DNA of 37,148 nt, taken from assembly GCA_017616735.1 (NCBI GenBank), contig JAFZXP010000049.1, positions 1 to 37,148 on the forward strand, in the 5' to 3' direction. Below the pieces are notes generated by a model that saw nothing but the letters and a program-made list of their open reading frames with translations, did no database searches and was not told the DNA's origin. The position numbers were made by a program, and so were the translations under genes. Shown here piece by piece: positions 20,912 through 37,148 of the stretch (position 1 is its first letter; each line of letters opens with the position of its first letter). Source of the stretch: Bacteroidales bacterium. GTDB lineage: Bacteria > Bacteroidota > Bacteroidia > Bacteroidales > F082.

Positions 20912-22864
20912 TCAATCAACATTGCGAATCAGTCGCACAGATTGGCCATTTCTACGTACCGAACAGTTAGAAGATGATTTTGTGACAGTTCCTGTATTAC
21001 TCCATTGTAAACAACAACCTCTATATTCGTTGTTAAAGTTTTTTGGATCTGTGGTGCTGGCCCAATAATGACCTTCATTTAAAGAATTCATTGAAGCACC
21101 ATTTCTAACATGTGCAGCTGGAAGGAACACGCATCCTAATTTTTCACACAATGCCCAAGTTTCAGCATCATCAAAAATTGTTACATTATATCCAGCATTC
21201 GAATCATTTCCATATTTAATTGATCTATTTAATGATCCTGTCCAGTTATCAGGGAAAATTATTAATCCTTTCACACCCAAAACAGTAGCAGAAGCAAACC
21301 TCTCTTTAGTCTCCATATAAGTTGGAGAGTCCGGTCTTGTATATACACGACCTTGCCTTGCTATCGCGTATGCCCATTCGTCACCTGTGAAAAGACGCCA
21401 TGCATAATCTCCGCCATTGGTTATCTTTTCAGATGAATTACCCGAAGCACTATGATAAACACCAAAATCATAGTCGGTATCAGTTATCGAACCGGCGTAA
21501 TAGCTATCACTATTATTAGATGTCATATACGGATATTTGTTATTATAACCGCTTGTACCCCAACAGAAAAGATCACGTGCGACATCCAAATCGGCAGATG
21601 CATTATACTTATCATATCCTGAAACAGTCACATTACCCTGATAGCTGGTGCCGCTGCTCGGGCCATCGCCCATAAAGTCGTATTGGTGGTCGGCAAAACG
21701 CCATGTGCCTGTGCCGTTGGCATTGCCAAGATATTGCAGATTACCCGGTGCGAAACAAACCTTTTGCGTAGCGCTCACGCTGATGAATGTATGCGTTAGG
21801 TTAAGATTGATGCCGTTCGGTTTGTAATCGTTAGCAACAATCTGAGGTATTGTCACAGGATCTTGTGTTGCGCAATATGTTGAGTAAGCATAAACATTAG
21901 AATTATAATTCTGCGGAAGCAAAATCGCCCACACATCACCGACATTCGAAGGAATTGTAATTTCGCCACCATTCACTTGGCTATAAGTAAAGCCTTCATC
22001 GGTATTTGCTGTTGTGTGGTCAAAGTTCACAGTCAAAAGATTGTTCATGCCTGTAATGCATGTGCCAGCCTGGTCGTAGCCTGTCGGCTTCTTCACATGT
22101 AACTTCACGATAGCGCATTTGTTAAGCAGTCTGGCTGAATAATTGCCTGTAGATGAAGGATAAACCTCAGCCGAATGTGCAAAATTGATAACAGGATATT
22201 TGCTGGTTTGATCCGATATATCCAGAGTAGCCACATTGCCTTCGATTGTTGGTGTAAAACCTTTCCCGCCAAGAAAATAGAAATACAGCGGCTCGTCAGT
22301 GACTGTCTGTGTGATATTTATATCGCCGTTAAAGTCTGTGCCGTCATAAGTAAGATATCCGACGTACGCCTTATTGTAACCCACGTACATAATATCGCCG
22401 CTTTCAAATGACACAGCAGCAAATCCGTTAGTTGCGGCATTAGTCGTATCAACAATAACCCTTGAATCATCATTTACCCTAAGTGTAATATGCACTTTGC
22501 CTGTATCGGCGCCCGACAAAACATCGAGGTTCTTTTTACATTGAGTAAAGCCTATCATCATGGCAAATGCCAACAAAACAGCCATACCCTTGCGGATTGA
22601 ACGTCTGCGACGGGTCGCTGCATAACCGGCACCGGCCAGTGATAAAACCAGCAGTCCGCTGCCAAGTGGAGCCGGCTCACCGATGCCTTGTGGCGAGAGG
22701 CCTCCGCCACCGATAACAAGATTTAAACTTCTTTGACTTGCCCAGTCTTCTTCTTTGAAAAAATCATCGCTATTACCCTGAGCGTTAGCATTCATAGGCA
22801 GCATCATTGCTGTCGCCAGTGCCGTTGAAAGCACCAAATACTTCAATTTTGCTTGCATATTCAT
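20912..22864 (-). CDS. Surface family protein A: signal peptide, tail motif, lipobox, fimbrillin-like and lectin-like domains
   Basis: A 650-residue exported protein. Order: signal peptide (1-29, ends A-N-A-Q); short linker; P-L-G-S-G-L-L plus a hydrophobic helix ending R-R-R-R (~65-88); a second hydrophobic stretch ending in the lipobox-like G-F-T-Q-C-K-K (~110); a beta-rich fimbrillin-like region with F-E-S-G-D-I-M-Y-V-G and W-A-I-L-L-P-Q (~125-340); and from ~380 a C-terminal domain with V-C-F-A-P-G-N-L-Q-Y, D-L-F-C-W-G-T-S-G, V-F-L-P-A-A and a final S-V-R-L-I-R. This last domain is widespread in Bacteroidales and resembles FISUMP and C-type-lectin-fold domains. The start at 22864 is where the signal peptide begins. 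Function is unknown; surface adhesion is inference. Its first 30 codons and upstream region are nearly identical to gene C. Confidence 0.75.
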   Translation of the reverse strand: MNMQAKLKYLVLSTALATAMMLPMNANAQGNSDDFFKEEDWASQRSLNLVIGGGGLSPQGIGEPAPLGSGLLVLSLAGAGYAATRRRRSIRKGMAVLLAFAMMIGFTQCKKNLDVLSGADTGKVHITLRVNDDSRVIVDTTNAATNGFAAVSFESGDIMYVGYNKAYVGYLTYDGTDFNGDINITQTVTDEPLYFYFLGGKGFTPTIEGNVATLDISDQTSKYPVINFAHSAEVYPSSTGNYSARLLNKCAIVKLHVKKPTGYDQAGTCITGMNNLLTVNFDHTTANTDEGFTYSQVNGGEITIPSNVGDVWAILLPQNYNSNVYAYSTYCATQDPVTIPQIVANDYKPNGINLNLTHTFISVSATQKVCFAPGNLQYLGNANGTGTWRFADHQYDFMGDGPSSGTSYQGNVTVSGYDKYNASADLDVARDLFCWGTSGYNNKYPYMTSNNSDSYYAGSITDTDYDFGVYHSASGNSSEKITNGGDYAWRLFTGDEWAYAIARQGRVYTRPDSPTYMETKERFASATVLGVKGLIIFPDNWTGSLNRSIKYGNDSNAGYNVTIFDDAETWALCEKLGCVFLPAAHVRNGASMNSLNEGHYWASTTDPKNFNNEYRGCCLQWSNTGTVTKSSSNCSVRRNGQSVRLIRNVD

Positions 22865-22886
22865 AAAAAATTTGTTTTTTAGATGT

Positions 22887-22940
22887 CCTCTTAAAATTGC
22901 GGGCGCAAAATTACAATTTTTTTCAATACAAATTGTGCGT
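22887..22940 (-). promoter_or_regulatory. Promoter region of surface gene A, shared with gene C
   Basis: The minus strand has TAATTTTG (22906-22913, a TAnnTTTG -7 box) followed by CGCCCGCAATTTTAAGAGG. The same block, with few differences, lies upstream of gene C at 27414-27466. The rest of the leader to the ATG is less alike. Confidence 0.55.
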
Positions 22941-22965
22941 CTTATAAAATAACGACCCAATTATC

Positions 22966-24870
22966 CTATTTTAATACAAGACGGACTGAGTGACCTTTAC
23001 CTCTCCCCTCAACAGATGTAACAGTTATACCATTACTGACGAATTTCAAAGCCTCAGCATTGCTGGTGCTGTTATTGTCACTTGACCAATAGAAACCATA
23101 ATCGCCTGGTTTTATCTGGATGCCGCCATACGTTTGATTCAAAGTTCCACCAGAACGCTGGCCGGCAGCAGGAAGAAACACTGCACCTGCAGGTTCCATG
23201 TAATGATTCCAGTTCTCCAAATTATAAACGTTGGCATCCCAGCCTGTTGTAGTTCCATCAAAAGCATCGTTTCCGCCATTCTTATACGGATCATCGAAAC
23301 TGTCAGGAAGAATAATTATACCGTGCATATCATTAACAGTGGCATAACCCCATTTCGATGCGGCATCATTTCTTGTCTGGAACAAATACACATATTCCGC
23401 CTTTTTCAATGTACGCCATTTATTCTCTTCATTCACACTATTCTTAATTATATTATATCCCCAGTCAGCTGTGCCGGTACTACTATATAATTTATTCCAT
23501 GAATTATTATATGCCTTATATCCGCTTCCGCTAGTACCAGTGTTACATGGTTTATAATTAGTCGCGCCATGAGCGTAGCCGCTTGTACCCCATCCCAAAA
23601 GTGTTACAATTGTTTTATCTGAATACTCTGTCGCAATATCAGAGTTCGTACGCTCGACAATGTCATACTGATTATCCATAAAATACCAGTTATATGTCGA
23701 CCAGCCGTCGGTGGTGACAGCTTTCAAATTTCCTTGCGAGAAATGCACTGCCTGATTGTCGGCGATGGTGAAAAGTCCACGCAAAGCGCCCTTGGTGTAT
23801 GCTTCAGGCGACACTTCCAGCGGTGTGCTTGTGTCTTCATTTTTACAATAAAAATTGCAAGCCGAAATGCCATCGGCAAATGTGCACGAGCCCTGAGTTC
23901 TCTTTGAAACAAAAGATATCTCGGTCTCCGAGCCGTCATTAGGAACCAGCATGACATATCTGCCACAGGTTGCACCGGCAGCCACGGCGCCCAAACTAAT
24001 GTAATTGTTGTTATGCTCGGTGTCTACTTTTGTATTAGTCACCGTATTGGTCGAAAAATCAATGGAAATTTTGTTGTTGACATTAGCGCCATACATATAC
24101 ACCTTCTCTCCTACCTCAGCCATTCCGGCGATATCGAAATAACCGATCGAAACCAGCGATGCCATTCCCGCTTGGGCGTGTATTTCATCACCTTCGGTAT
24201 ATGACATCTCCTGCGAACCGTGCCCAACATGGAAATTGCCAAGGTCAGCGCGGCTACCCGTCTGATTGCTGAAGTCCAACTCAAACGATGTGGCATCAGT
24301 GGCTATTTCCTTGTCACCGACGTAATAATAATGCAATGTATGAGTTCCTGATGTAACGCCGGTAACATATCCGGTAAACAATGCCAGGTCGGCCGAACTA
24401 TTCTGCACATATCCGACACATTTTCCATCGCACACAACATAAATCTTGTCGCCTGCGACCCAGCTTATAGCTCCTGATTCAGAAATTGATGTCTTTGCCC
24501 CGTTGTATGCCTCAAGAGTCATCGGTATGCCGTTGGCAACGCTACTGATGGTGTCAACATTTTTGCTGCATTGTGTAAAAGCCGACATCATCGCAACTGC
24601 AAGAAGCAATGTGCCGCCTTTTCTGACCAAATGTTTTCTTCGTGAGATAGCGTAGCCGACACCAGCCGCAGTCAAAACCAAGAGTCCGCTTCCCAGAGGT
24701 GCCACAGGGTCGTTAGGCGTAAAACCGCCTGTAATCCACGTCATTCCCACGCCATCTCTGGTGAAAGTGTCATCTTCATCCGAAATAAACCAATCACTGT
24801 GATTTTGTGCGCTCAACGGCATTGCAAAAAGCGCCATAATAACTGTAAATACAAACGACTTCATATTCAT
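22966..24870 (-). CDS. Surface family protein B: signal peptide, tail motif, lipobox, fimbrillin-like and lectin-like domains
   Basis: A 634-residue paralogue of gene A with the same order of parts: signal peptide (ends P-L-S-A-Q), P-L-G-S-G-L-L hydrophobic tail ending R-R-K, second hydrophobic stretch ending A-F-T-Q-C-S-K, a middle domain with V-A-G-D-K-I-Y-V-V and H-Y-Y-Y-V-G-D, and a C-terminal domain with V-H-F-S-Q-G-N-L, L-L-G-W-G-T-S-G, V-F-L-P-A-A-G and S-V-R-L-V. The middle domain is more diverged than in A, C and D, and lacks the W-A-I-L-L-P-Q ending (it has R-Y-V-M-L-V-P). The ATG at 24870 begins the signal peptide. A TACTTTTG box lies 35 bases upstream, so it has its own promoter. 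Confidence 0.72.
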   Translation of the reverse strand: MNMKSFVFTVIMALFAMPLSAQNHSDWFISDEDDTFTRDGVGMTWITGGFTPNDPVAPLGSGLLVLTAAGVGYAISRRKHLVRKGGTLLLAVAMMSAFTQCSKNVDTISSVANGIPMTLEAYNGAKTSISESGAISWVAGDKIYVVCDGKCVGYVQNSSADLALFTGYVTGVTSGTHTLHYYYVGDKEIATDATSFELDFSNQTGSRADLGNFHVGHGSQEMSYTEGDEIHAQAGMASLVSIGYFDIAGMAEVGEKVYMYGANVNNKISIDFSTNTVTNTKVDTEHNNNYISLGAVAAGATCGRYVMLVPNDGSETEISFVSKRTQGSCTFADGISACNFYCKNEDTSTPLEVSPEAYTKGALRGLFTIADNQAVHFSQGNLKAVTTDGWSTYNWYFMDNQYDIVERTNSDIATEYSDKTIVTLLGWGTSGYAHGATNYKPCNTGTSGSGYKAYNNSWNKLYSSTGTADWGYNIIKNSVNEENKWRTLKKAEYVYLFQTRNDAASKWGYATVNDMHGIIILPDSFDDPYKNGGNDAFDGTTTGWDANVYNLENWNHYMEPAGAVFLPAAGQRSGGTLNQTYGGIQIKPGDYGFYWSSDNNSTSNAEALKFVSNGITVTSVEGRGKGHSVRLVLK

Positions 24871-24904
24871 TAGATTATTCCTGTATTTTGCTTTTTTCGG
24901 GCGG

Positions 24905-24912
24905 CAAAAGTA
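24905..24912 (-). promoter_or_regulatory. -7 box of surface gene B
   Basis: The minus strand reads TACTTTTG, matching TAnnTTTG, followed by CCGCCC as in the neighbouring promoters. Confidence 0.5.
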
Positions 24913-25015
24913 CACAATATTTTAATATGATTTACAACAGATTTGCGATAATTTTCAACAGGAAAAATTCATTGATTTACATGGAGTGGCAAGTTCAAAA
25001 TGTTTCGAGAAAAGA

Positions 25016-25050
25016 CAATTGCCGCAGTTCCGCAGAAACCGCGGCAATTG
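25016..25050 (-). terminator. Hairpin terminator after surface gene C
   Basis: A perfect 10-bp stem, CAATTGCCGC (25016-25025) with GCGGCAATTG (25041-25050), 56 bases past the gene C stop. It is followed on the minus strand by TCTTTTCTCG. Confidence 0.65.
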
Positions 25051-25105
25051 GTGTAAATGGCAGAGCCAATACTAAGTACTGCTGATAAGATGTCTGAATA
25101 AAGGT

Positions 25106-27391
25106 TTATTGCTGTGTCACATTTGCACCAGATTGGATAGTTACGGTGCCACAGGAAACTTGATTAGCATTATTATAATATCCTCCTGCTCCAATACTAT
25201 GCTTTCCTTGGTACCCCATTGTGGCTATAACTTCAGTAACGCCTGTGGTTATTGTGATTGTTCCACAGGTAGATACAAGGCCATAGGCTCCATATCCCGT
25301 ACCAATGCCTGCAGCTTTTTGCCCACCCGTGGCTTCGACGGTGCCGCCGTTTATTAAAATATTACCACAGGTGCTTCTTGATTTGCCAGAGCCAATACCA
25401 GGAGCATAGTAATCAGACATTTTTGCAGTTACAGTACCGCCACTGATTGTTATAGCACCAACTTGGGCACAATGTCCAGCGCCAATTGCAGCTCCAGCAT
25501 AAGCATTAGCAGCACTACTATTATTTGCTGTTGACCTAGCAGTCACATCAGCTGTTCCCTCAATGATTATACCTTCACAACGGGAATAGGCAGCATAGGT
25601 AGTATTATTCGTAAAACTCTCGCGTCCGGAGCCAATGGCAGCACCACCTTCCCAAGATTGGGCAGTCACTTTTCCACCGCTAATGGTAATGGTACCGCAG
25701 GTGGAATACCCTGAATCATTTTCGGATGTTCCGCTACCAATGCATGCTCCACCACTTTTGTGGGTATCAACTGTGACAGTTCCACCAGTAATTGTAATAT
25801 TGCCACAACGAGAGGTGCCACTATATGCACTGCCTGCACCAATAAGCGCTCCGTTAGAACATGCAGTACTATTGCCTATACTCTGTATATAAGGGTTTAT
25901 TTTGATTGTACCACCGGTAATTGTAATGTTGCCACAATCTCCGTTTTTGTCTGAGCCAATGAAAGCACCCGTATGGCTACCGTTAGAATTGTCCTTATTG
26001 TACATTGCCATGTCAAGTGTACCACTTCCACTGATTGTAAGTGTTGTTTTTGTTGGTTCGTAGGTGCCAGCCTTGATTATAGCTTTAGTATTATCTGCCG
26101 AGTTCGAACTTCTAACATAATTCGTTCCACACAATACAATCTCAGCATTACCTAAGCAGTTAATGGCATTGCCACTGGCCTGCATATTCACACCATGAAG
26201 GTAAACTTTCTGTCCATTAGCGATAGTAATAGTATTCGCAGTGGGTGTGCCAGCATTGCTCTGGTAAATGTGGGCAATTGTATTAGCTGTACCAGTATAA
26301 GATGCAGTTGCAAGGTCGAAACCTTGTCTATCCATGCTGAGACTTTTACCACTATTCAAATATTTATTCCTTTCAATCTCATCTAACGCAGGACGTGAAC
26401 CTTTATAGTATTCATCAGCGATATATACCGAGCCCGCAACACCAGCTTCAATAGCATTTTGCGGAAGCACGATAGCCCATCTGGTGCCGTCAGTACTTGT
26501 TGGCATCTTAATAAGGCCATCACTTCCAACTTTTATGCCGTAACTAAAGCTATTATCATTGAAATCAACAGTAACCGTGTTGTTCATACCTGTTATGCAC
26601 AACGCTTGTGAATTGATATCTGCAATATTATCTGTGGTGAATTTCATGAATGAGCAGTAATTGAATAAATTGGCAGTGTATTCACCCGCGCCCTCGTAAA
26701 CTTCATTTGAATGATTGTATGAAATTACCGGATATTTCGATGTCTGATCAATGATGTCAACGGTGTATTTAGTGCCATTGATATCTGGAGTCTTGTTTCC
26801 AAGAAAATAAAAATGCAAAGGCGAATCATCACCCACTGGCGTAACAAATGCGACATCACCGCCAAATTGTTGATTCTCTGCATTATAAGTCAACGATCCG
26901 AGGCAAACTTTGTTATAGCCGACGTAAATCACATCACCTTCTTCAAATGTTACCGTGGCAAATTCATCTTCAGGAACTACGTTAGCCCTTGAGCCACCAT
27001 CAACGTTGAGGGTAATTCGAACAGTATTTAACACTGGAGATATAGATTCAGCATTCTTTTTGCAGCCCGTTATTCCCAAAACAAGTGCGAAAGCTAAAAG
27101 TAATGTTGATCCTTTTTTGAAATTACGTCTACGACGCATTACGGCGTATCCTGCTCCTGCCGCAGTCAAAATCAGCAGGCCACTGCCAACCGGGGCTTCA
27201 CTCTGGCCAATGCCATTGTTTGAAATACCATTAGCAGCTGTCCAATATGTAACAGTACGAGTTCCACCGAACTCGTCATTTACACGGAAAAAATCATCGC
27301 TACGCTGAGCGTTAGCATTCATAGGCAGCATCATTGCTGTCGCCAGTGCCATCGAAAGCACCAAAAACTTAAATTTTGCTTGCATATTCAT
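25106..27391 (-). CDS. Surface family protein C: same N-terminal parts, Gly/Cys repeat solenoid at the C terminus
   Basis: A 761-residue protein. The signal peptide (M-N-M-Q-A-K, ends A-N-A-Q), P-V-G-S-G-L-L tail ending R-R-R-R and second hydrophobic stretch ending G-I-T-G-C-K-K match gene A closely. The middle domain has F-E-E-G-D-V-I-Y-V-G and W-A-I-V-L-P-Q. The C-terminal third differs: from residue ~410 (G-N-A-E-I-V-L-C-G-T) it has about eight repeats of I-G-(S/A/T)-G, a variable loop, then C-G-x-I-T-I-x-G-G (~480-755), running to the stop. It is probably a parallel beta-helix; similar repeats occur in proteins called carbohydrate-binding. So the shared N-terminal part carries a different output domain. 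Confidence 0.72.
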   Translation of the reverse strand: MNMQAKFKFLVLSMALATAMMLPMNANAQRSDDFFRVNDEFGGTRTVTYWTAANGISNNGIGQSEAPVGSGLLILTAAGAGYAVMRRRRNFKKGSTLLLAFALVLGITGCKKNAESISPVLNTVRITLNVDGGSRANVVPEDEFATVTFEEGDVIYVGYNKVCLGSLTYNAENQQFGGDVAFVTPVGDDSPLHFYFLGNKTPDINGTKYTVDIIDQTSKYPVISYNHSNEVYEGAGEYTANLFNYCSFMKFTTDNIADINSQALCITGMNNTVTVDFNDNSFSYGIKVGSDGLIKMPTSTDGTRWAIVLPQNAIEAGVAGSVYIADEYYKGSRPALDEIERNKYLNSGKSLSMDRQGFDLATASYTGTANTIAHIYQSNAGTPTANTITIANGQKVYLHGVNMQASGNAINCLGNAEIVLCGTNYVRSSNSADNTKAIIKAGTYEPTKTTLTISGSGTLDMAMYNKDNSNGSHTGAFIGSDKNGDCGNITITGGTIKINPYIQSIGNSTACSNGALIGAGSAYSGTSRCGNITITGGTVTVDTHKSGGACIGSGTSENDSGYSTCGTITISGGKVTAQSWEGGAAIGSGRESFTNNTTYAAYSRCEGIIIEGTADVTARSTANNSSAANAYAGAAIGAGHCAQVGAITISGGTVTAKMSDYYAPGIGSGKSRSTCGNILINGGTVEATGGQKAAGIGTGYGAYGLVSTCGTITITTGVTEVIATMGYQGKHSIGAGGYYNNANQVSCGTVTIQSGANVTQQ

Positions 27392-27413
27392 ATAATTTTT
27401 ATTGTTTTTATTC

Positions 27414-27480
27414 CCTCTTAAATTTGCGGGCGCAAAATTACAAAATTTTTTAATACAAAATGTGCGAAAAAACGCACATT
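27414..27480 (-). promoter_or_regulatory. Promoter region of surface gene C, shared with gene A
   Basis: The minus strand carries TAATTTTG (27433-27440) and the same CGCCCGCAA block as gene A. Just upstream AATGTGCG-TTTTTT-CGCACATT (about 27460-27481) can form an 8-bp hairpin that gene A keeps only in part. Confidence 0.55.
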
Positions 27481-27506
27481 TCTCCATCAAAAATTAACAA
27501 AAAAAC

Positions 27507-27539
27507 TTGTCTTTCATTCAAAAATTTGTTATAATTTTG
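27507..27539 (+). promoter_or_regulatory. Promoter of the DUF5618 gene
   Basis: TAATTTTG (27532-27539) matches the -7 box, with TTG at 27507-27509, 22 bases upstream, as a weak -33 element. The ATG follows at 27574. Confidence 0.5.
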
Positions 27540-27573
27540 CAGCGTAAGAATTTAAGAAGCAAAAAGAAACATA

Positions 27574-27966: not shown

Positions 27967-28034
27967 TATAAGCTGGATACACCAAGTCACGTCATCTCAC
28001 CACAATAATAACCTCTCCTAATGCCACAATAATT

Positions 28035-28376: not shown

Positions 28377-30275
28377 TTATTCAACGTCTCGGACGAGGCG
28401 GACGGAATGTCCATAGTAACGACTTTCTGTACTTATACCACAGTCATCATCACCAAATTTGAAATAATACGAGTCATTCCAACTATCAAGAGAACTTGAC
28501 GAATAGTAGCCCTCTCCCCAAGTTGGATCATATGCAACATCTGTGACATCATTTCCATCACGATATCCAGCAGCTGGTAAAAATACACAACCGGCAGTTT
28601 CCATTTTGTCCCAATCATCAAATGAATACTGGTTCTGCCCCCAATAGTCTTCATTATCGCTATTATTGATGCCAACTGGATATTCTACTCCATCTGGATG
28701 AGTGTATAAATCAGGGAATAATATTACACCAAGAATTCTATTACCAAGATATGCTTTTACGAAACGAGCATTAGTTACTTCATTTATCGTTGACGATTCT
28801 CGACACGTCTCTCCAGGTATAGGATTATAATAAACATTATCTGAAGTACCCGTCAACCAAACCCATTCATCACGCGTTAATGTACGCCAGTTAAACTCTC
28901 CTCCTCTGTTAATAATCACTTCACTGTTCTTTTTACCCCACTCATAATCAGTACCAGCAATATCACTACTTACATAATCATTGTCATCGTCACTTGTCAT
29001 ATTGGGTAATTTATTATCATAACCGCTGGTTCCATAGCCAAAATGACTAACAACACTTCTTTTTGCATAATTCTCTCTTACATTAGCCTCATCGTCATAA
29101 TCATATTGATGTGCCTTAAAACTCCATATACAACTATTCCAATTATCTATCGAAACAGCTTGTAAATTACCACTTGAAAACTTTACTTTCTTTGTACTAC
29201 TGACTGAGAATTCACCGTCCAAGGATCCTCCATTCGTAGATAAAGAAATCGGGATGCCAGCCGCTTCCCAACTATTGATAGATATTGCAGGTATGGTAAA
29301 AGGTGTTGTAGTAATGTATCCAGACGCTGCCGCCGTAGTTGTCACTTCGTCTTGTGGTAAAAGAATCGCCCATCTTTCTGTGTTTGATTCAGCATGAAGT
29401 GTTATTTTTCCATCACCAAGTGTAACAAAAGTGTATGGTTCCCCAGTTGTTTCTCCATTATTTGCGTCAAAATGTATAATCACACAGTTTTTCATACCAT
29501 TAATGGTTACTGGGTTGGCCATAGGAATATCTGTAGTTGTAAACTTTACTATAGAGCATTTATTCTTGAGTCGTGCACTATATGAATATAAACCGGCTTT
29601 ATATTTCTCAGTAGACGGTGCATACGATATAACCGGATATTCTAACGCTTGATCTTGAATATCAACATAGTATTCAATGTCTTCTGTTATTTCTACGCGC
29701 TGCTTATTACCAACGAAATAAAAATGCAAATAGTCATCTGTGCTAGTTGGGGTTATATCACCACTAAAAGTCTCACCATCATAATCAAGATACCCGCAAT
29801 AAACACCATTATTTCCAACATAAATTCTATCTCCATTCTGAAATGAAACAGTTGCGAATGTACCACCTCCTGTAGGATTTACATTAACTTTAGACCCATT
29901 TCCGACATTCAATTTGATATGAACCACGCTTGGTGTATTTTCTGATATATCATCTACTCTTTTACGGCATTGGGTCAAACACAGCAACATAGCACTAATA
30001 ACAATTAATGTGATATTCTTTTTCATTATCCTTCTATTGTTAATAGCTATATATCCAACTCCCAACAACACCATAAGAAGTAATCCTGAACCAATTGGAG
30101 ATTCACCTATACCTTCATTACTTATTACCCATGCATATAATGGATCCCTGGTTTCATTAAACTCATCATCCACTCTGAAAAAATCGTCGCTCTTCTGAGC
30201 GCTCACCGGCAACGCACAAATCATTGCCAAAACAAATGAAAGCACAAGAGCTTTCAAATCAAAAAAGTTCTTCAT
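28377..30275 (-). CDS. Surface family protein D, with an internal lipoprotein signal that keeps its Met
   Basis: A 632-residue paralogue of A and B. It has a signal peptide (M-K-N-F-F, ends P-V-S-A-Q), P-I-G-S-G-L-L plus a hydrophobic helix ending N-N-R-R, then I-M-K-K-N-I-T-L-I-V and a stretch ending C-L-T-Q-C-R-K (~105). That second part is a complete lipoprotein signal peptide including M-K-K, so an internal start could make a separate lipoprotein. The middle domain has F-Q-N-G-D-R-I-Y-V-G and W-A-I-L-L-P-Q, and the C-terminal domain V-K-F-S-S-G-N-L-Q, G-Y-G-T-S-G-Y, V-F-L-P-A-A-G-Y and S-V-R-L-V-R. Base composition is more A+T-rich than in A-C. The leader holds a run of nine C residues (minus strand). 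Confidence 0.75.
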   Translation of the reverse strand: MKNFFDLKALVLSFVLAMICALPVSAQKSDDFFRVDDEFNETRDPLYAWVISNEGIGESPIGSGLLLMVLLGVGYIAINNRRIMKKNITLIVISAMLLCLTQCRKRVDDISENTPSVVHIKLNVGNGSKVNVNPTGGGTFATVSFQNGDRIYVGNNGVYCGYLDYDGETFSGDITPTSTDDYLHFYFVGNKQRVEITEDIEYYVDIQDQALEYPVISYAPSTEKYKAGLYSYSARLKNKCSIVKFTTTDIPMANPVTINGMKNCVIIHFDANNGETTGEPYTFVTLGDGKITLHAESNTERWAILLPQDEVTTTAAASGYITTTPFTIPAISINSWEAAGIPISLSTNGGSLDGEFSVSSTKKVKFSSGNLQAVSIDNWNSCIWSFKAHQYDYDDEANVRENYAKRSVVSHFGYGTSGYDNKLPNMTSDDDNDYVSSDIAGTDYEWGKKNSEVIINRGGEFNWRTLTRDEWVWLTGTSDNVYYNPIPGETCRESSTINEVTNARFVKAYLGNRILGVILFPDLYTHPDGVEYPVGINNSDNEDYWGQNQYSFDDWDKMETAGCVFLPAAGYRDGNDVTDVAYDPTWGEGYYSSSSLDSWNDSYYFKFGDDDCGISTESRYYGHSVRLVRDVE

Positions 30276-30294
30276 ATTTTATTTTTTTAATAAA

Positions 30295-30420: not shown

Positions 30421-30430
30421 AATTGGGCCG

Positions 30431-30438
30431 CAAAGATA
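30431..30438 (-). promoter_or_regulatory. -7 box of surface gene D
   Basis: The minus strand reads TATCTTTG followed by CGGCCC, the same pattern as the other surface-gene promoters. It gives a leader of about 150 bases. Confidence 0.55.
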
Positions 30439-30459
30439 CACTTTTTTTCGACATGAAAT

Positions 30460-30489
30460 GCCGCCTCTGAAATTTTTTTCAGAGGCGGC
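30460..30489 (-). terminator. Hairpin terminator after the truncated surface gene
   Basis: GCCGCCTCTGAAA (30460-30472) pairs with TTTCAGAGGCGGC (30477-30489), a perfect 13-bp stem with a four-base loop, 47 bases past the stop at 30537. Confidence 0.75.
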
Positions 30490-30536
30490 AAACTCAAACT
30501 TCGCTAAAGTCGTTCAAATTGATAAAAACAATCAAC

Positions 30537-31601
30537 CTATCGCACCAGGCGCACCGACAGGCCATAGAAACAACCGACAGAGGCGCAAGGACTCACGGCC
30601 GTACCAATCCATCCGTCATCGAATCTCAATTGATATACTTGATAGTCGGCGTAAGGATTATCAATACAACGAGTAGAGGTCCAGTAGTGTCCAGTCCCAT
30701 CATCGCTCATCACATGGTCCCCACTGCGATCGCTGGCAGCAGGCAAGAACACAGCGCCGGCCGCCTCTATCGAAGACCAGTCACCGGCTGACACTGAAGC
30801 AACATTCCGATAATTATTATATACATAACTACCTACACCTCCATCATATCCATCAGGATATACGATTATTCCATAATAACTCTTACCGCCTACAGCGATT
30901 CTAGCGTGCAGGAAACGATTTCCTTCTCTGCAGGTGACTCCTGGCTCAGCTTCAGCCCTAATACCTATAAGCCATACCCACTCGTCCTCCGAAAGGGTAA
31001 ACCAATGATATGAATTACCCGTCGGATCACCACAATAATCGCCCCAGTCTTTAAAAACCTCATAATCAAGGGTATCCTCCGATGTCATAGTCGGGTCGTC
31101 GCCAGTTCCCCAACCAAAGAGACCCACTATGTCCTGCCTTGAATAGTTGGTGCCGACATTTAGATTTTCTGTTTCAACCACGTCGTATTGATGTTCCATG
31201 AAACTGTATTCACCGGTTCTTTTGTCGTATTGAAGGTTACCGGGACTAAAACGGACCACATTGCCATTCTTGCTCACAGTAAACACCTTATCTGTCGAAG
31301 GTATTGTGTTGTCAATAGTATTGGTCGTTATATAACTGTTATTTTCAACTGCCGCAATATCGCAATTATATGCTTTTCCATCTATCATAGCCAACCCTTT
31401 GGAAACAGCTTCCTGCGGAAGAAGGATAGCCCATTTCTCGGTCGCACTCTCCGATTTCAATGTAATGGCGTCTTTTGTGCCGTTGGCAACGATAGGGTTA
31501 CTTGGGTCGGCAAAGTTGGTGGTGACACCTGTCTTCATGCCAGCCACCTTAACAGCTTCCGAAGTGCCTTCAGCAAGAGTGAACTTCACCAAGCCGCATG
31601 A
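30537..31601 (-). pseudogene. Surface family gene E, 5'-truncated
   Basis: The frame matches the second half of A and D: C-G-L-V-K-F at its upstream limit (compare N-K-C-G-L-A-K-F in gene F), then W-A-I-L-L-P-Q, V-R-F-S-P-G-N-L-Q-Y, L-F-G-W-G-T, V-F-L-P-A-A-S and S-V-R-L-V-R at the end. The signal peptide, tail motif, lipobox and half of the fimbrillin-like domain are missing. Similarity stops at about 31601 and the next gene's stop is at 31622, so the break lies in 31602-31621. Without a signal peptide it cannot be exported as written. It may be a silent cassette for recombination. Confidence 0.75.
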
Positions 31602-31621
31602 ACAACAAAAAAAATATATTT

Positions 31622-32116
31622 TTATTGATTCTCAAACTTCTTCACCAGCTCTTCGGGGGTTAAACCCAAATTTGCGATTGATGCACGGCATGCTTCGGCA
31701 AACTCACCGTCGGGATATAGGGCCAGATACTGCTCGTAAAGCTGTCGGGCCATGTCGAGATTCTCATAGTAGGTCTCAAAAATAAAGCCTTTCACAAACA
31801 GTGCGGCTTGAGTGCGAGGATAGTCGGGATAATCTTTAATCATCCTGTCGATGATGGCTATGGTGCGCTGCGCATTGTCGATATTCATCGACACATTCAC
31901 CGCCTTGAAAAGAATTTCAGGAGTTTTCTCGTCGTTGGGATACTTGATGGCATAGTCGCAATAGGCCGTAACCAACTCGTCGGCCAACGCCGGGTCGACA
32001 GCCTGCTCGGTAGCAAACAGCTGCTGCTCCAATTTCTCAATCCTTTTCGCTGGATCGTTGCTGTTACAACCCATTAACAAAACCGAAAAAAGTAATATTA
32101 CAAAATATCTTTTCAT
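31622..32116 (-). CDS. TPR-type lipoprotein
   Basis: A 164-residue lipoprotein: M-K-R-Y-F signal with lipobox L-L-M-G-C (Cys 17), then helical repeats with TPR spacing, for example A-Y-C-D-Y-A-I-K-Y-P-N-D-E-K-T-P and A-R-Q-L-Y-E-Q-Y-L-A-L-Y-P-D-G-E-F-A. The pattern recalls BamD/YbgF-type tetratricopeptide proteins but is short. It is probably periplasmic. It follows def on the same strand, and its 3' end is the junction with the truncated surface gene. Confidence 0.72.
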   Translation of the reverse strand: MKRYFVILLFSVLLMGCNSNDPAKRIEKLEQQLFATEQAVDPALADELVTAYCDYAIKYPNDEKTPEILFKAVNVSMNIDNAQRTIAIIDRMIKDYPDYPRTQAALFVKGFIFETYYENLDMARQLYEQYLALYPDGEFAEACRASIANLGLTPEELVKKFENQ

Positions 32117-32176
32117 CTGTTATCTATTATCTGTTATCTTGAGATTTCTCCGCTCGCTTCGCTCGGTCGAAATGAC
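32117..32176. repeat. Short 7-bp repeat plus a REP-like interspersed element
   Basis: CTGTTAT, CTATTAT, CTGTTAT make three heptamers next to the TPR gene start. The adjoining 32142-32176 (GATTTCTCCGCTCGCTTCGC, then TCGGTCGAAATGACG) is of a type I recall as a frequent interspersed intergenic repeat in Bacteroidota; its GCGAAGCGAGC core can fold. Confidence 0.5.
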
Positions 32177-32182
32177 GGGAAG

Positions 32183-32752
32183 TTATCGACGGTGTTTCTT
32201 ATTCGGGAAAATCATCTTGTAATCGACATCGACATTGCCTTCCGATATGTTGCGCAACTTGTTCTTGAGCAACATCTTACGCATCGGGCTGATTCTGTCG
32301 ACATAGCATTTACCTTCAAGATGGTCGTATTCGTGCTGAATCACTCGCGCCACTATGCCGTCAAACTCTTCTTCGTGCTCCACAAAATTCTCATCCATGT
32401 AGTACAGTTTCACCTTGCTCGGGCGCTCCACATCCTCGCCCATGTCGGGCAGGCTCAGGCAGCCTTCCCTAAACATCCACGGCTCGCCGCCAAGCTCAAG
32501 AATCTCGGCGTTGATAAACACCTTCTTCACGCCGGCGCCCTCCGGATACTTGTCCTTAAACGGGTCGCAGTCAATCACAAACAGTCTGATCGACTTGTTG
32601 ATTTGAGGCGCTGCCAAACCGACGCCTTCGGTATAATACATAGTCTCGAACATATCGGCAATAAGCTGCTTCAGTTCGGGTGTGTTCTCTTCAATATCTT
32701 CGGCCACGTGCTTCAGCACCGGATGACCGTATGCCACAACTGGTAAAACCAT
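32183..32752 (-). CDS. def: Peptide deformylase
   Basis: A 189-residue metalloenzyme that removes formyl from nascent proteins. All three motifs are present: G-V-G-L-A-A-P-Q-I near residue 45, E-G-C-L-S-L-P near residue 105 and Q-H-E-Y-D-H-L-E-G near residue 150, which supply the metal-binding Cys and two His. Length is usual. It lies downstream of ruvX across a 66-base gap filled by a heptamer array. Confidence 0.96.
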   Translation of the reverse strand: MVLPVVAYGHPVLKHVAEDIEENTPELKQLIADMFETMYYTEGVGLAAPQINKSIRLFVIDCDPFKDKYPEGAGVKKVFINAEILELGGEPWMFREGCLSLPDMGEDVERPSKVKLYYMDENFVEHEEEFDGIVARVIQHEYDHLEGKCYVDRISPMRKMLLKNKLRNISEGNVDVDYKMIFPNKKHRR

Positions 32753-32753
32753 C

Positions 32754-32823
32754 TTTTATCTTTTATCTTATAACTTTCAACTTTTAACTGTCAACTGCTA
32801 ACTGCTAACTGACAACTGTCAAC
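32754..32823. repeat. 7-bp repeat array that contains the ruvX stop codon
   Basis: Ten consecutive 7-base units, from TTTTATC twice through TTATAAC, TTTCAAC, TTTTAAC, TGTCAAC, TGCTAAC twice, TGACAAC and TGTCAAC. It fills the gap between def and ruvX; the ruvX stop TGA is at 32819-32821. Confidence 0.85.
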
Positions 32824-33232
32824 TAATTGACGCCATATACGATTGCAGGATGATCGTCGCGCTAATCGTATCCACGAGTTCCTTGTTCTGCCTTGCCTTT
32901 TTGCCCAAACCGGCGTCAATCATGGTTTGATGCGCCATCACCGAGGTAAATCGCTCATCAAAACGCTTCACCGTCATGTCGGGCAATGCTTTGCGCAACT
33001 GTTTCAAAAACGGTTCGATATACTGCGCCGACTCCGACGGATTGTTGTGCATGTCTTTCGGCTCGCCCACCACAATCTCGTCAACTTGCTCATTTTTCAC
33101 GTAATCCTGGATAAAAGCAACCAAATCGCAAGCCCTAACTGTTGTCAAACCGTTGGCTATAATGCGCAGCGGATCGGTCACGGCCACGCCGCAACGCTTT
33201 CTGCCATAATCGATTGCCATTATCCTACCCAT
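32819..33232 (-). CDS. ruvX: Putative pre-16S rRNA nuclease / Holliday junction resolvase-like protein YqgF
   Basis: A 137-residue RNase H-fold protein: G-R-I-M-A-I-D-Y-G-R-K-R-C-G-V-A at the start with the catalytic Asp, E-I-V-V-G-E-P near residue 58, V-K-R-F-D-E-R-F-T-S near residue 90 and a final V-D-T-I-S-A-T-I-I-L. YqgF acts in 16S rRNA 5' maturation in E. coli. I chose the ATG at 33232 over one at 33253. A TAATTTTG box (33251-33258, minus strand) lies upstream, divergent from the tRNA promoter. Confidence 0.92.
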   Translation of the reverse strand: MGRIMAIDYGRKRCGVAVTDPLRIIANGLTTVRACDLVAFIQDYVKNEQVDEIVVGEPKDMHNNPSESAQYIEPFLKQLRKALPDMTVKRFDERFTSVMAHQTMIDAGLGKKARQNKELVDTISATIILQSYMASIS

Positions 33233-33250
33233 CTTTGAAAATAATTTTTG

Positions 33251-33258
33251 CAAAATTA
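33251..33258 (-). promoter_or_regulatory. -7 box of ruvX
   Basis: The minus strand reads TAATTTTG, 18 bases upstream of the ATG, in the 83-base gap shared with the divergent tRNA promoter. Confidence 0.5.
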
Positions 33259-33265
33259 TAAAAAA

Positions 33266-33298
33266 TTTGCGGACGTATTAAAAAAATTCGTACCTTTG
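33266..33298 (+). promoter_or_regulatory. Promoter of tRNA-His
   Basis: TTTG (33266-33269) and TACCTTTG (33291-33298) with 21 bases between them match the Bacteroidota -33/-7 consensus. The tRNA starts 18 bases after the -7 box. Confidence 0.75.
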
Positions 33299-33315
33299 CA
33301 GCCGCAAACCCAGAT

Positions 33316-33390
33316 GGTAGATGTAGCTCAGCTGGTTAGAGTACCGGATTGTGGTTCCGTGGGTCGTGGGTTCGAATCCCACCTTCTACC
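33316..33390 (+). tRNA. tRNA-His (anticodon GTG)
   Basis: A cloverleaf folds with D arm GCTC/GAGT, anticodon loop TTGTGGT (anticodon GTG) and T arm GTGGG-TTCGAAT-CCCAC. The extra 5' G (33316) facing C73 is the identity mark of tRNA-His. CCA is not encoded. Two stem mismatches are visible: T-T at the sixth acceptor pair and C-T at the first anticodon-stem pair. The dapD gene ends 2 bases away on the other strand. Confidence 0.95.
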
Positions 33391-33391
33391 C

Positions 33392-34201
33392 TCAAACTTG
33401 AACATCTCTTAACGCTTCGTTGAGAGATGTTTTTTTATCGGTCGAATCGTTTCTCTTCTTGATTATCAACGCACAAGCCACCTGGAAGTCGCCTGCCGGG
33501 AAGTGCTTTGTATACGATCCTGGCACCACCACCGAACGCGCCGGCACCACACCTTTGTATTCCTTAATCTCTGGCCCTGTCACATCCAAAATCTTCGTCG
33601 ATTGCGTGATGACGGTGTTCGCGCCAAGCACAGCTTCTTCTTCAATTCTCACACCTTCCACCACAATGCAACGCGACCCGATGAAACAGTTATCCTCTAT
33701 GATAACAGGTGCTGCCTGCACAGGTTCCAAAACTCCGCCAATGCCGACGCCGCCGCTCAGATGCACGTTTTTGCCAATCTGCGCGCACGATCCCACCGTA
33801 GCCCATGTATCGACCATGGTGCCGCTGTCGACGTAAGCACCTATATTAATATATGAAGGCATAAGCACAGCGCCACGGTTGATGAAAGCGCCGTAACGCA
33901 CTGTCGCCGGAGGCACCACACGCACTCCAGCCTGCTCAAAACCACCCTTCAACGGAATCTTGTCGTAATACTCGAAGATGCCGCTTTTGGACACCTCCAT
34001 ATCGTTGATCGGGAAAAACATTATGACGGCTTTCTTCAGCCATTCATTTACAACCCATTGGTTATCAATCTTTTCAGCGATTCTTATTTCTCCTTTATCA
34101 AGAAGCCTAACCACCTCGCGGATAGCCTCACGAATCTCGTTTTTGGCCAGCAGCGTGCGGTCGTCCCATGCTTTTTCGATGATATTTTGCAAATTATTCA
34201 T
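33392..34201 (-). CDS. dapD: Tetrahydrodipicolinate N-succinyltransferase
   Basis: A 269-residue left-handed beta-helix enzyme of the lysine/meso-DAP pathway, which supplies MurE. Hexapeptide repeats run through the middle (A-F-I-N-R-G-A-V-L-M-P-S-Y-I-N-I-G-A-Y-V), with G-T-M-V-D-T-W-A-T-V-G-S, G-G-V-G-I-G-G-V-L-E-P and E-D-N-C-F-I-G-S. The start at 34201 (M-N-N-L-Q-N-I-I-E) follows a TATCTTTG box; an in-frame Met at 34219 would overlap the box. Its last codons overlap, on the other strand, the terminator of tRNA-His. Confidence 0.95.
   Translation of the reverse strand: MNNLQNIIEKAWDDRTLLAKNEIREAIREVVRLLDKGEIRIAEKIDNQWVVNEWLKKAVIMFFPINDMEVSKSGIFEYYDKIPLKGGFEQAGVRVVPPATVRYGAFINRGAVLMPSYINIGAYVDSGTMVDTWATVGSCAQIGKNVHLSGGVGIGGVLEPVQAAPVIIEDNCFIGSRCIVVEGVRIEEEAVLGANTVITQSTKILDVTGPEIKEYKGVVPARSVVVPGSYTKHFPAGDFQVACALIIKKRNDSTDKKTSLNEALRDVQV
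33401..33436 (+). terminator. Rho-independent terminator of tRNA-His inside the dapD coding end
   Basis: AACATCTCTTAACG (33401-33414) pairs with CGTTGAGAGATGTT (33418-33431) over 14 positions (one G-U) with a CTT loop, followed by seven T (33430-33436). The same bases encode the last dapD residues on the minus strand. Confidence 0.85.
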
Positions 34202-34216
34202 ATCTGAAATTTTTTG

Positions 34217-34224
34217 CAAAGATA
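34217..34224 (-). promoter_or_regulatory. -7 box of dapD
   Basis: The minus strand reads TATCTTTG, 15 bases before the dapD ATG and 4 bases after the stop of surface gene F. Confidence 0.55.
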
Positions 34225-34228
34225 CAAA

Positions 34229-35899
34229 TTATTTATCATCCCCAGCACGCACCGCTCTCACAGGCCGTCCTTGGTTGCGAATGAATTCAACTACAGACAC
34301 ATGAGGATTTCCGAGAGTATCATAGGCTATATACTCCTTCTCGCTTGCCAATTCGAGGTGGTCCATCGATCCTCCATTACCTGAATAGTCTGGGTCATCG
34401 AAAAATAGTATATACGCTCGGTACGGGTAGTCTGAGTCGATTTCGTTCGACCAGTATTCACCATGGGGCAAATTTCCACAACCGAAATAAAACGAGTGCA
34501 TAGGGCCGCCGTAAACTCCGGCAAAAGGCAGGAAGATGCTTTTATCTGTGTAGCCTTCCGCTTTCCCAGTAAATCGCACGCCTCCTATGCCGTTCACCAC
34601 ATCCCTCGTTTGGGTAGTTTCATTGATAAGAGTCCTCCATTCTTCTCTTGTAGGTATGTGCCAACCATTGCCCCATTTGGCCACAGCCACGTCATCATTA
34701 TTAAATTCGGTATCCAGCATGGTAACTCCGTCTGGTCCCCCTACCACTTCTCCGTTTGGCCCAGTCACATCTCCTCCCTCATAGGCGAAATAGGCGGCTT
34801 TGTTGTTATACTTGAAAAACCCCAGATTGGGCTTACCATTAGAACCAAGTTCGTGGTGAAGCGTATCATCAGAACTATATCCAGACCCTTCTGCAGTGAT
34901 CCATGCAGAAGAAGGATTCTTTGGATAAAACTTAGGGTTGAAGGCATATTTATAGGAATGCCAGCAGTATGTAGTCTTGGGTTCGGTTTCTGCCCAAGCG
35001 AAGAAGGTGCCGAAGCCCTCATGCGTGCATGAGCCTATGTTGCAGGCAGCCCACAAGCGCTTGCTCGAAAGTCCGAGATCAACCCATTCAATCCCCACCG
35101 ATATGCCATGGTATCCTCCATAGAAGGAATTGGCTTCTATGGCAGGCAGGGTGATGGTCTGGTCAATAGGATTACCAGTGGCGCCGTTGATGTAAGAAAC
35201 CGTAGCATCCGTCTCATCCTGCGGCAGCAGTATGGCCCACCTCTCGGCTGGATCAGAGTTTTTACGCTTATGGAGCGTTATCGCTCCAGTTGCATCGGTT
35301 GGTGTGATACCAGGGTTTACAGCGTCAAAGCTGATGGTTGCCGTGGTCTTCATCCCCGAAATCGTGACGGCAGTATTAGTTGTAGATGGCGTTGGCCAAG
35401 CCATGAATTTAGCCAAGCCGCACTTGTTCTCGAGCATACAGACATAGGCCGAGATGCCGTTATTGTACAATGTGGTCGAGTGGCCATAAGATACGATAGG
35501 GAGTGTGACCGACTGATCGGCGATACTAACGGTGAATTCTGTAGTTTCGTTTATCGCAGGTGTTGTGCTCGGCGTTAATTTACCCAGATAGTAGAAATGC
35601 AGGTAGTCGGTTTCCACCGGGTCGGCTACCAAACCGCTGAACGAACCGTTATGGTACTCCAGCTTGCCTCTGTATTTGCCGGTGTTGCCCACGTAGATGA
35701 TGTCGCCTTCTTCATAAATAACAGCACCCGTGCCAGGATACACGGTATCCATATCACGGCCTCCTCCTACTCTCATGGTGATGCGAACCCATTTGCTGAC
35801 GACAGGCGTGTCGTGCGTGGCTGGTGATTCCTGTTTTTTGCACTGGTTCATGCCGAGAACCACTGCTATAGTTACAAAAAATATAATGAGTTTTTTCAT
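34229..35899 (-). CDS. Surface family protein F: stand-alone lipoprotein with fimbrillin-like and FISUMP-like domains
   Basis: A 556-residue lipoprotein. Its own signal peptide (M-K-K-L-I-I-F-F-V-T) ends in lipobox G-M-N-Q-C-K-K (Cys 20). The middle domain has Y-E-E-G-D-I-I-Y-V-G, H-F-Y-Y-L-G, N-K-C-G-L-A-K-F and W-A-I-L-L-P-Q, as in A, C and D. From residue ~265 it has a FISUMP-type domain: V-D-L-G-L, L-W-A-A-C-N-I-G, F-F-A-W-A-E-T, G-N-G-W-H-I-P-T-R-E-E-W, F-L-P-F-A-G and a final G-R-P-V-R-A-V-R. The parts fused onto its N terminus in A-D are here a separate gene 40 bases upstream. Confidence 0.78.
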   Translation of the reverse strand: MKKLIIFFVTIAVVLGMNQCKKQESPATHDTPVVSKWVRITMRVGGGRDMDTVYPGTGAVIYEEGDIIYVGNTGKYRGKLEYHNGSFSGLVADPVETDYLHFYYLGKLTPSTTPAINETTEFTVSIADQSVTLPIVSYGHSTTLYNNGISAYVCMLENKCGLAKFMAWPTPSTTNTAVTISGMKTTATISFDAVNPGITPTDATGAITLHKRKNSDPAERWAILLPQDETDATVSYINGATGNPIDQTITLPAIEANSFYGGYHGISVGIEWVDLGLSSKRLWAACNIGSCTHEGFGTFFAWAETEPKTTYCWHSYKYAFNPKFYPKNPSSAWITAEGSGYSSDDTLHHELGSNGKPNLGFFKYNNKAAYFAYEGGDVTGPNGEVVGGPDGVTMLDTEFNNDDVAVAKWGNGWHIPTREEWRTLINETTQTRDVVNGIGGVRFTGKAEGYTDKSIFLPFAGVYGGPMHSFYFGCGNLPHGEYWSNEIDSDYPYRAYILFFDDPDYSGNGGSMDHLELASEKEYIAYDTLGNPHVSVVEFIRNQGRPVRAVRAGDDK

Positions 35900-35939
35900 G
35901 GTTTTATTTTTTGAGACGCGATGAATAACATCTTTACAG

Positions 35940-36248
35940 TTAATAATCTAAGGTCTTTTTACGTTTCCGCACAACATAGCAAACTCCCGCGCCTATCATT
36001 ATCAACAGCCCTTCTCCAAGCGGAACCGTCTGTCCAAAATGTTGGTTATAAAGGTGGTAGGTAACGTTGTCTTCGTCACCAAAATGTTGGTTCGTCAGGT
36101 TGTAATACAGGCAGTCCTCCGTACGGAGTCCATATTCCGCGTCAGGATAGAAAAAAAAGTCGATATTCTGTGCGTTAGCCGGCAATCCAAGACCTATGAC
36201 AAACAATGCTGAAATCAGCAAAGCCCTAATATTTACAAGCTTTTTCAT
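35940..36248 (-). CDS. Small exported protein with P-L-G-E-G-L-L tail motif (stand-alone form of the A-D N terminus)
   Basis: A 102-residue protein: signal peptide (M-K-K-L-V-N, ends A-N-A-Q), a short variable region with N-I-D-F-F-F, a twice-seen N-Q-H-F-G, then V-P-L-G-E-G-L-L and a hydrophobic helix ending R-K-R-K-K (~75-98) four residues before the stop. The motif-helix-basic layout resembles C-terminal sorting signals of the PEP-CTERM kind, but the motif is not one I can name. I chose the ATG at 36248. It lies between two lipoprotein genes on the same strand, probably one operon. No sorting protease is visible in the window. Confidence 0.65.
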   Translation of the reverse strand: MKKLVNIRALLISALFVIGLGLPANAQNIDFFFYPDAEYGLRTEDCLYYNLTNQHFGDEDNVTYHLYNQHFGQTVPLGEGLLIMIGAGVCYVVRKRKKTLDY

Positions 36249-36279
36249 TATAATTTTCAAAATGATTAAATACTCGCTT

Positions 36280-37148
36280 TCAAGGCCGCAAAGGCGCCGT
36301 CTCACGCACAGCCCTCACAGGGCGGCCTTCGTTGCGAATGAATCCTACATCATCTGAACCAGAATCATCCGCGCTCTTCACACCAAGATGCTCCATATCT
36401 CCTCCGCCACCTTCAAAGTCTGGGTCATCGAAATATAGTGAATACGCTTGGTATGGTTTTTCTGAGTCGATTTCGTTCGACCAGTATTCACCCACGGGCA
36501 GATTTCCCGAACCGTAATAAGACGAGTGTTGAGGACCGCTATAAAAACCGGCAAAGGGCAGAAAGATGCTGTTGCCGTTCTCTTTAGAGATGAACCGTAT
36601 GCCTCCTATGCCGTTCACCACTTCCCTTGTTTGGGTTGTTCCTGTTTTCAGTTCATTCCATTCATCTACTGTAGGCATGCGCCAACCATTGCCCATAATG
36701 GCCAAAGCCGCGTCGTCACCGAGTTCCAGGGTGGTTTTACCGTCGGGAGTATCGAATGATTCCGGGAGCCAGTCGTCTTGGGTGTTATACTTAGTGAGCC
36801 ACAGATTTGGTCCATTATCACCATCTTCCCAGTGAATTGTATCACCATCGGTTGGATCAGGGTCTTGGGCAAACGCGTAGTGACTCCAGCAGTATGCTTT
36901 CTTTGATGCGGTTTCGCCCCAAGCGAAGAATTTGCCGTAACCCTCGTGCGTGCATGAGCCTACGTTGCAGGTAGCCCATAGCACTGAAAGACCAAGGTCA
37001 ACATATTCGAGTCCCACCGATATGCCGTTGTATCCACCATAGTAAGTGTTGGCTTTTATGGTAGGCATGTAGATGGTCTGGGCAACATCATGGTTTTCTG
37101 CGTCTTTGTATGAGACTGTGGCTTCTTCCACCGAACTCTGCGGCAGCA
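36280..37148 (-). CDS. Surface family protein H, C-terminal part (gene leaves at the right edge)
   Basis: The frame is open to the right edge, where it begins L-P-Q, the end of the W-A-I-L-L-P-Q motif of the middle domain. The rest is a FISUMP-type domain close to gene F: Y-V-D-L-G-L, L-W-A-T-C-N-V-G, F-F-A-W-G-E-T, G-N-G-W-R-M-P-T-V-D-E-W, F-L-P-F-A-G and G-R-P-V-R-A-V-R. The N terminus is outside the window, so whether it is fused or split cannot be told. It stops 31 bases before the small protein gene. Confidence 0.78.
   Translation of the reverse strand, partial: LPQSSVEEATVSYKDAENHDVAQTIYMPTIKANTYYGGYNGISVGLEYVDLGLSVLWATCNVGSCTHEGYGKFFAWGETASKKAYCWSHYAFAQDPDPTDGDTIHWEDGDNGPNLWLTKYNTQDDWLPESFDTPDGKTTLELGDDAALAIMGNGWRMPTVDEWNELKTGTTQTREVVNGIGGIRFISKENGNSIFLPFAGFYSGPQHSSYYGSGNLPVGEYWSNEIDSEKPYQAYSLYFDDPDFEGGGGDMEHLGVKSADDSGSDDVGFIRNEGRPVRAVRETAPLRP

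Follow-up and report, generated by a model that had tools for sequence, protein, structure and literature searches.

Candidate surface polyproteins of Bacteroidales joining an exosortase-type sorting tail to a fimbrillin-like lipoprotein

How can a sorting tail of the kind that ends a protein lie in the middle of a chain, directly before a lipoprotein signal? The question is raised by an array of paralogous genes on the minus strand at 20912-37148 of the Bacteroidales contig JAFZXP010000049.1, positions 1-37,148 of which were analysed (hereafter the window). A first-pass annotation of this DNA had described four complete open reading frames (ORFs) with a mid-chain tail followed by a lipobox, and all four are present with that anatomy: after the signal peptide and a short linker comes the P-[LVI]-GSGLL helix with a basic cluster, then a second hydrophobic helix that leads to the lipobox Cys, and last a long extracytoplasmic part (fused genes 1-4 in Table 1). 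The same array holds the two halves as separate genes, a pair that the annotation had not pointed out: a small protein with the tail at its true C terminus and, next to it, a lipoprotein with its own N-terminal lipobox. That the same halves also occur as two adjacent genes points to cleavage of the fused chain into two surface products. From comparison of sequences we think it likely that the fused ORFs are polyproteins whose cleavage yields a peptide processed by an exosortase and an adhesin carrying a lipid.

Fused and split copies of the same halves

A hidden Markov model built from five tail-lipobox stretches (A2) matched the window's own genome, at E up to 0.1, in 32 places, of which 11 were full-length (fused), 16 tail-only and 5 lipobox-only. 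The tail-only places sit in frames of 85-139 amino acids; for four of the 16 a lipoprotein gene begins 2-40 nt further on, and the other 12 are without one. The loci fetched for comparison gave 134 tail ORFs, reduced to 125 distinct ones by the removal of near-duplicates (L082, L108 and L126 held no classed tail ORF): 75 with an internal tail, from 20 genomes, and 50 with a C-terminal tail. L072, from a sister genome (G479:C8), is counted among the 50 and is a fused-type gene with a stop codon within its tail.

A lipobox Cys in a [TSN]xCxK context, 38-54 residues past the tail Pro, is found in 74 of the 75 fused ORFs (20 genomes), a conservation count that is partly circular because most loci were fetched as full-length matches to A2, which includes the lipobox. 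The Cys was looked for 30-59 residues past the Pro, and by chance the context arose in 48 of 14,800 shuffles of the downstream residues. A less biased count comes from a tail-only model (A3): all 22 internal tails that it listed in G000, G039 and G052, in frames of more than 500 amino acids, are also full tail-lipobox matches. The loop between the two helices has a net charge of +3 to +9 (74/74 fused ORFs), and an N-terminal signal is seen in 72/74 by a simple rule (Met, Lys/Arg, hydrophobic run) that is not a trained predictor. A cut was found by a simple rule in 53 of the 74, and the mature peptide would be 30-46 residues long in 45 of these. A chance motif was ruled out by the A2 census of the own genome and the shuffle test, and a sequencing or assembly artefact (a lost stop) by the presence of 75 fused ORFs across 20 genomes.

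Judged against known substrates, the tails show the tripartite order of motif, helix and basic cluster that marks exosortase-type (PEP-CTERM-like) proteins. The C-terminal position that also marks them is found in the 50 ORFs and is lacking in the 75 fused ones. The second helix has the order expected of a lipoprotein, a hydrophobic signal and then a lipobox Cys, which lies internally in 74/75 fused ORFs and N-terminally in 31 split lipoproteins. The lone fused ORF without a lipobox (L078/L189) has a type-I-like signal, NAVAQ, at the lipobox position, and L188, found separately, has AWAQ there; the second helix thus behaves as the export signal of the next protein. In both L188 (G041:C27) and L189 (G461:C144) what follows the tail in the same chain is a type-I-like signal peptide and then a large secreted protein; the frame of L188 runs to 2976 amino acids.

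Among the 50 distinct short tail ORFs, 31 have a lipoprotein start 2-40 nt past their stop, a proportion in which in-phase tail-lipoprotein pairs are over-represented since the search model detects them. In the window the N terminus of the split lipoprotein, MKKLIIFFVTIAVVLGMNQCKK, looks like an ordinary lipoprotein start. On a tree of the lipoprotein part, made by a quick method from 73 fused and 31 split rows (one fused row was too short and was left out), fused and split copies interleave, with 11 state changes of which at least four are forced by starred branches, and a single clade of split rows is rejected (p 4.3e-5). The two arrangements have therefore replaced each other repeatedly, and a need for the halves to stay in one chain is hard to reconcile with several such replacements. 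The split arrangement, in which the tail ends a protein and the lipoprotein gene comes next, is probably ancestral, a direction of change that we infer; loss of a stop codon would have joined the small tail gene to the gene for a fimbrillin-like lipoprotein a few bases on.

Association of the tail with an exosortase

The first-pass annotation had proposed that the tail be checked across Bacteroidales for co-occurrence with a protease of the exosortase or rhombosortase type, and the outcome differed between the two. In a sample of 344 genomes of the order, 337 of them at least 90% complete and at most 5% contaminated, tails were found in 50 genomes and an exosortase in 138; the enzyme is present in 46 of the 50 tail genomes versus 92 of the 294 others, and with the own genus removed in 41/45 versus 92/294. 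Within the genus, all 60 genomes have tail or lipobox matches and 59 have an exosortase. The rhombosortase idea was not borne out: the own genome matches TIGR03902 (cut-off 84 bits) at 36.6 and 26.3 bits only, and all 14 control genomes match it too, none over the cut-off.

The two genes are also found side by side. In six other genomes (L182-L187) the gene immediately before the exosortase gene encodes a small tail protein, the distance from tail match to exosortase domain match being 99-118 bp in G217, G291, G348 and G395, and 645 and 738 bp in G274 and G070, whose exosortases are longer. In four order relatives (L182-L185), long ORFs flank the pair on both sides, one just upstream of it and one that converges on it from downstream.

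The window's own genome (80.5% complete) encodes one exosortase-family protein, of 204 amino acids, on another contig. It passes the general exosortase/archaeosortase signature TIGR04178 (57.6 over 23) and is nearest to XrtX (NF046081), with 78 bits there against a cut-off of 170. A Cys, an Arg and a third active-site residue have known roles in exosortases, and three aligned proteins, the own one and those of two sister genomes, retain motifs of catalytic type (APEC, TNVxR and AHD). For the archaeosortase ArtA, the available part of one report gives a Cys and two Arg as active-site residues (PMC9263693).

Among curated families, the tail aligns to NCBIfam PID-CTERM (NF046080) as the enzyme does to XrtX. 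The likeness is limited by scores that lie mostly below the curated cut-offs, so that the family names are approximate, and a C-terminal domain model does not describe an internal position before a lipobox. The small split protein of the window matches PID_CTERM weakly (E 0.22, 11.4 bits) and the four fused window proteins have no match to it at E up to 1; three of these four match other C-terminal anchor models (GVDTG_CTERM, CoaP_CTERM) at E 0.33-0.87. The exosortase-adjacent tails scored 18-23 bits on a PID_CTERM rescan in G217, G291, G348 and G395, below the cut-off, and gave no match at E up to 0.01 in G274 and G070.

A proposed route to two products and its alternatives

Strong support for the earlier suggestion, in which the middle segment is a sorting signal of C-terminal type placed directly before a lipoprotein signal, comes from three sides: paralogues that are split, the association with an exosortase, and a tree on which fused and split copies interleave. 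We propose that the N-terminal signal peptide would export a short mature peptide whose end is a sorting tail of exosortase type, made up of P-x-G-S-G, a helix and a basic cluster. The tail helix would halt transfer in an out-to-in topology, with its basic end inside, and the second helix would recross the membrane in-to-out as a lipoprotein signal, the basic end of the tail doubling as the positive n-region of that signal. The XrtX-like exosortase would cut at P-x-G-S-G and anchor the small peptide, and lipoprotein transferase and signal peptidase II would lipidate and free the adhesin, cutting before the Cys. We infer both cleavages from family knowledge, together with the lipidation, anchoring, surface location and adhesion; two products per gene would be the outcome. 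The idea of two-product ORFs built of tail and lipobox is well supported by comparison, if unproven. We lean slightly towards the broader proposal of a recurring bacterial polyprotein surface system in which one ORF would give an exosortase-anchored peptide and a lipidated pilin-like adhesin one-to-one, one basic loop would be both tail end and lipoprotein-signal start, and gain or loss of a stop codon would switch between operon and polyprotein.

Several observations weigh against cleavage into two products or against parts of the evidence for it. The residue at lipobox position -1 is mostly Gln (49/74 fused ORFs), the textbook residue being Gly, Ala or Ser; Gln is also found there in 30/31 split lipoproteins. 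The fused or split label is clustered on the tree, with 11 changes against a mean of 26.8 after shuffling and none of 500 shuffles as low, so switching was repeated yet not frequent; 44 of the 101 inner branches of this quick tree are weakly supported, and among classified genomes both forms occur together only in G000, partly owing to how loci were picked. On the enzyme side, the Fisher test for the order sample (p 1.5e-16) ignores shared ancestry, which inflates p values. In that sample the XrtX cut-off is reached by none of the 344 genomes, 92 of the 138 exosortase genomes have no tail at this search sensitivity, and four of the 50 tail genomes (G122, G128, G254 and G255, all weak hits) have no exosortase. 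G001, 89% complete, has a fused gene and no exosortase detected. Finally, PID_CTERM (cut-off 26 bits) lists just two tails in the own genome at E up to 1e-3, at 34.8 bits on C50 and 23.8 bits on C3, one of them above the cut-off.

The alternative that survives best, which we nevertheless regard as unlikely, is that the lipobox alone is cut, leaving the tail as a leftover membrane span and the small peptide on a two-helix hairpin in the inner membrane. It gains from the fact that the machinery for lipoprotein processing is general and that the exosortase cut is a proposed one. It does not explain, however, why the tail should be the most constrained stretch, with a dN/dS of about 0.07 against 0.29 in the loop and 0.19 in the lipobox helix (pooled over 68 pairs that overlap and are non-independent, with synonymous sites near saturation), with P-x-G-S-G kept, or why the same tail is elsewhere C-terminal and exosortase-linked.

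More doubtful again is a model in which no polyprotein is made and the halves are translated separately, by internal initiation at the junction despite the open frame. An ATG, GTG or TTG is present in 39 of the 74 fused junctions, 16 of these being ATG, and independent translation of the second half is possible there, a further point against a single chain; a start-like Met-Lys-Lys stretch occurs in L118 and in fused gene 4 of the window. The other 35 junctions hold none of these codons, so separate initiation is not the general way and was ruled out as a rule, and in all 75 fused ORFs, from 20 genomes, one reading frame runs through the junction. Least probable, and very much so, is that the chain stays whole as a multi-span membrane protein and displays the adhesin domain. 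Two helices and a positive loop are compatible with a simple hairpin; against it stand the separate stop and start of the split paralogues, the repeated switching between fused and split, and the lipobox Cys in 74/75 fused ORFs.

Cleavage at an internal sorting tail has one precedent that is processed and one in which processing is proposed. HVO_0405 of Haloferax volcanii is described as a two-gene fusion with a central ArtA cleavage site, cleaved in the parent strain and not in two lipid-synthesis mutants tested; uncleaved HVO_0405 did not accumulate (PMC7157517). As in our ORFs, gene fusion put a motif-helix-basic tail mid-chain, and HVO_0405 is cleaved there enzyme-dependently (PMC7157517); since such internal tails can be processed, the internal tail here may work like a C-terminal one. 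HVO_0405 differs in being archaeal, in its PGF motif and in being one strain-specific protein, with no lipobox mentioned in the part of the source available, whereas the fused Bacteroidales ORFs are associated with an exosortase, have many paralogues and split relatives, and carry a lipoprotein signal right after the tail. The second precedent, MXAN_5598, has an internal MYXO-CTERM and is assigned to myxosortase; the accessible text proposes a two-gene fusion and processing of the N-terminal part, draws a comparison with the overlapping traA/traB, and, with reference to Navarre 1994 and Abdul Halim 2017, holds that C-terminal tags also work in the middle of a protein (PMC11980579). Shared with our ORFs are the internal sorting tag, the proposed fusion and the proposed processing of the N-terminal part; the enzyme is instead of the CPBP protease class, the protein is single, its second part is an outer-membrane barrel, and that text mentions no lipobox. 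The first-pass annotation had called the system possibly undescribed. This holds in part: the second signal and the many paralogues are unusual, and the tail resembles PID-CTERM and belongs to a kind, internal tripartite tails from gene fusion, already known (HVO_0405) or proposed (MXAN_5598) to be processed.

A literature search that covered few subscription papers, and so does not show absence from print, found no mention of PID-CTERM. A search for exosortases with Bacteroidales gave nothing on sorting tails as judged from titles and abstract openings, and one for bacterial signal-peptidase polyproteins yielded nothing relevant. To our knowledge there is little proof so far of the substrates and products of exosortases in Bacteroidota. 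A 2024 paper on Flavobacterium defers the question of its exosortase substrates to later work (PMC10936215). A substrate that cleavage splits into two sizeable products would offer an easy read-out of exosortase activity, a role that the HVO_0405 fusion played for archaeosortase A, and would make exosortase action in Bacteroidota directly testable. If true, the proposed route would also show how the two kinds of signal, sorting tail and lipoprotein, can be nested, and that a single chain can supply a bacterium with two surface proteins.

The adhesin half, distribution and the window array

The lipoprotein half has a predicted fimbrillin, or type V pilin, fold. The predicted model of fused gene 4 gave 15 Foldseek hits against the PDB at E up to 1e-3 (best E 3.3e-7; TM normalised by target 0.24-0.50), all of them Bacteroidales proteins and 13 named as adhesion or fimbrial, Mfa2 and Mfa3 among them; the match is moderate because the mean pLDDT of the model is 67. 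The Mfa_like_1 match is weak (16.5 bits versus a cut-off of 27). In this predicted fold the half resembles type V pilus fimbrillins (FimA and Mfa proteins) and Bacteroidales fimbrillin-like adhesins. Known fimbrillins differ from the fused ORFs in starting with their own lipoprotein signal, and we know of none fused behind a sorting tail. The C-terminal parts differ between paralogues, one gene having beta-helix repeats; FISUMP matches, weak and below cut-off, are found in the split lipoprotein and in the contig-cut paralogue. The number of paralogues and the variation in their C-terminal parts point to a diverse repertoire of adhesins in gut Bacteroidales.

The small peptide has features of its own. 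Before the tail the mature form often has at least one repeat of the N-Q-x-F-G or E-Q-F-G type (L076, L048, L127, L050 and other split pairs, and the split tail protein of the window). A mature start of the form Q-x(0-8)-D-x-F-[FIVLY] is seen in 68/74 fused ORFs, in 16/18 stand-alone and in 5/30 lipoprotein-paired short proteins.

At E up to 1e-6 the tail-lipobox model matches 72 of 173 genomes of the family, all within one of its 16 genera, and the fused form was found nowhere outside that genus in these 173 genomes and the 344 of the order. All 65 tail places listed outside the genus in the order genomes lie in frames of 63-211 amino acids, in a search in which for some genomes not every first-look candidate was scored. 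Named relatives are metagenome-assembled genomes of uncultured Bacteroidales or Bacteroidia, and the names of several refer to samples from yak, buffalo, goat, deer or horse.

Table 1. Genes of the paralogue array in the window
Feature	Coordinates	Strand	Details
Fused gene 1: signal peptide, linker, PLGSGLL tail, lipobox, fimbrillin-like lipoprotein	20912..22864	-	tail to Cys+3 at 22529-22672
Fused gene 2: architecture as fused gene 1	22966..24870	-	tail to Cys+3 at 24559-24702
Fused gene 3: architecture as fused gene 1; C-terminal beta-helix repeats	25106..27391	-	tail to Cys+3 at 27053-27196; PF18889, 1.2e-10
Fused gene 4: architecture as fused gene 1; fimbrillin folds matched by its model	28377..30275	-	tail to Cys+3 at 29958-30101
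Truncated paralogue: fimbrillin-like remnant without signal peptide, tail or lipobox	30537..31592	-	
Split version, second gene: fimbrillin-like lipoprotein, own N-terminal lipobox (MKKLIIFF...NQCKK)	34229..35899	-	40 nt after stop of 35940-36248
Split version, first gene: small protein, signal peptide, linker and PLGEGLL tail at true C terminus	35940..36248	-	tail ends KKRKKTLDY, then stop
C-terminal part of a further paralogue, cut by contig end	36280..37146	-	

The truncated remnant and the contig-cut ORF, like the split pair, had not been recognised in the first-pass annotation as members of this array, and both are paralogues of the fused genes. The remnant lies just downstream of a small lipoprotein gene at 31622-32116.

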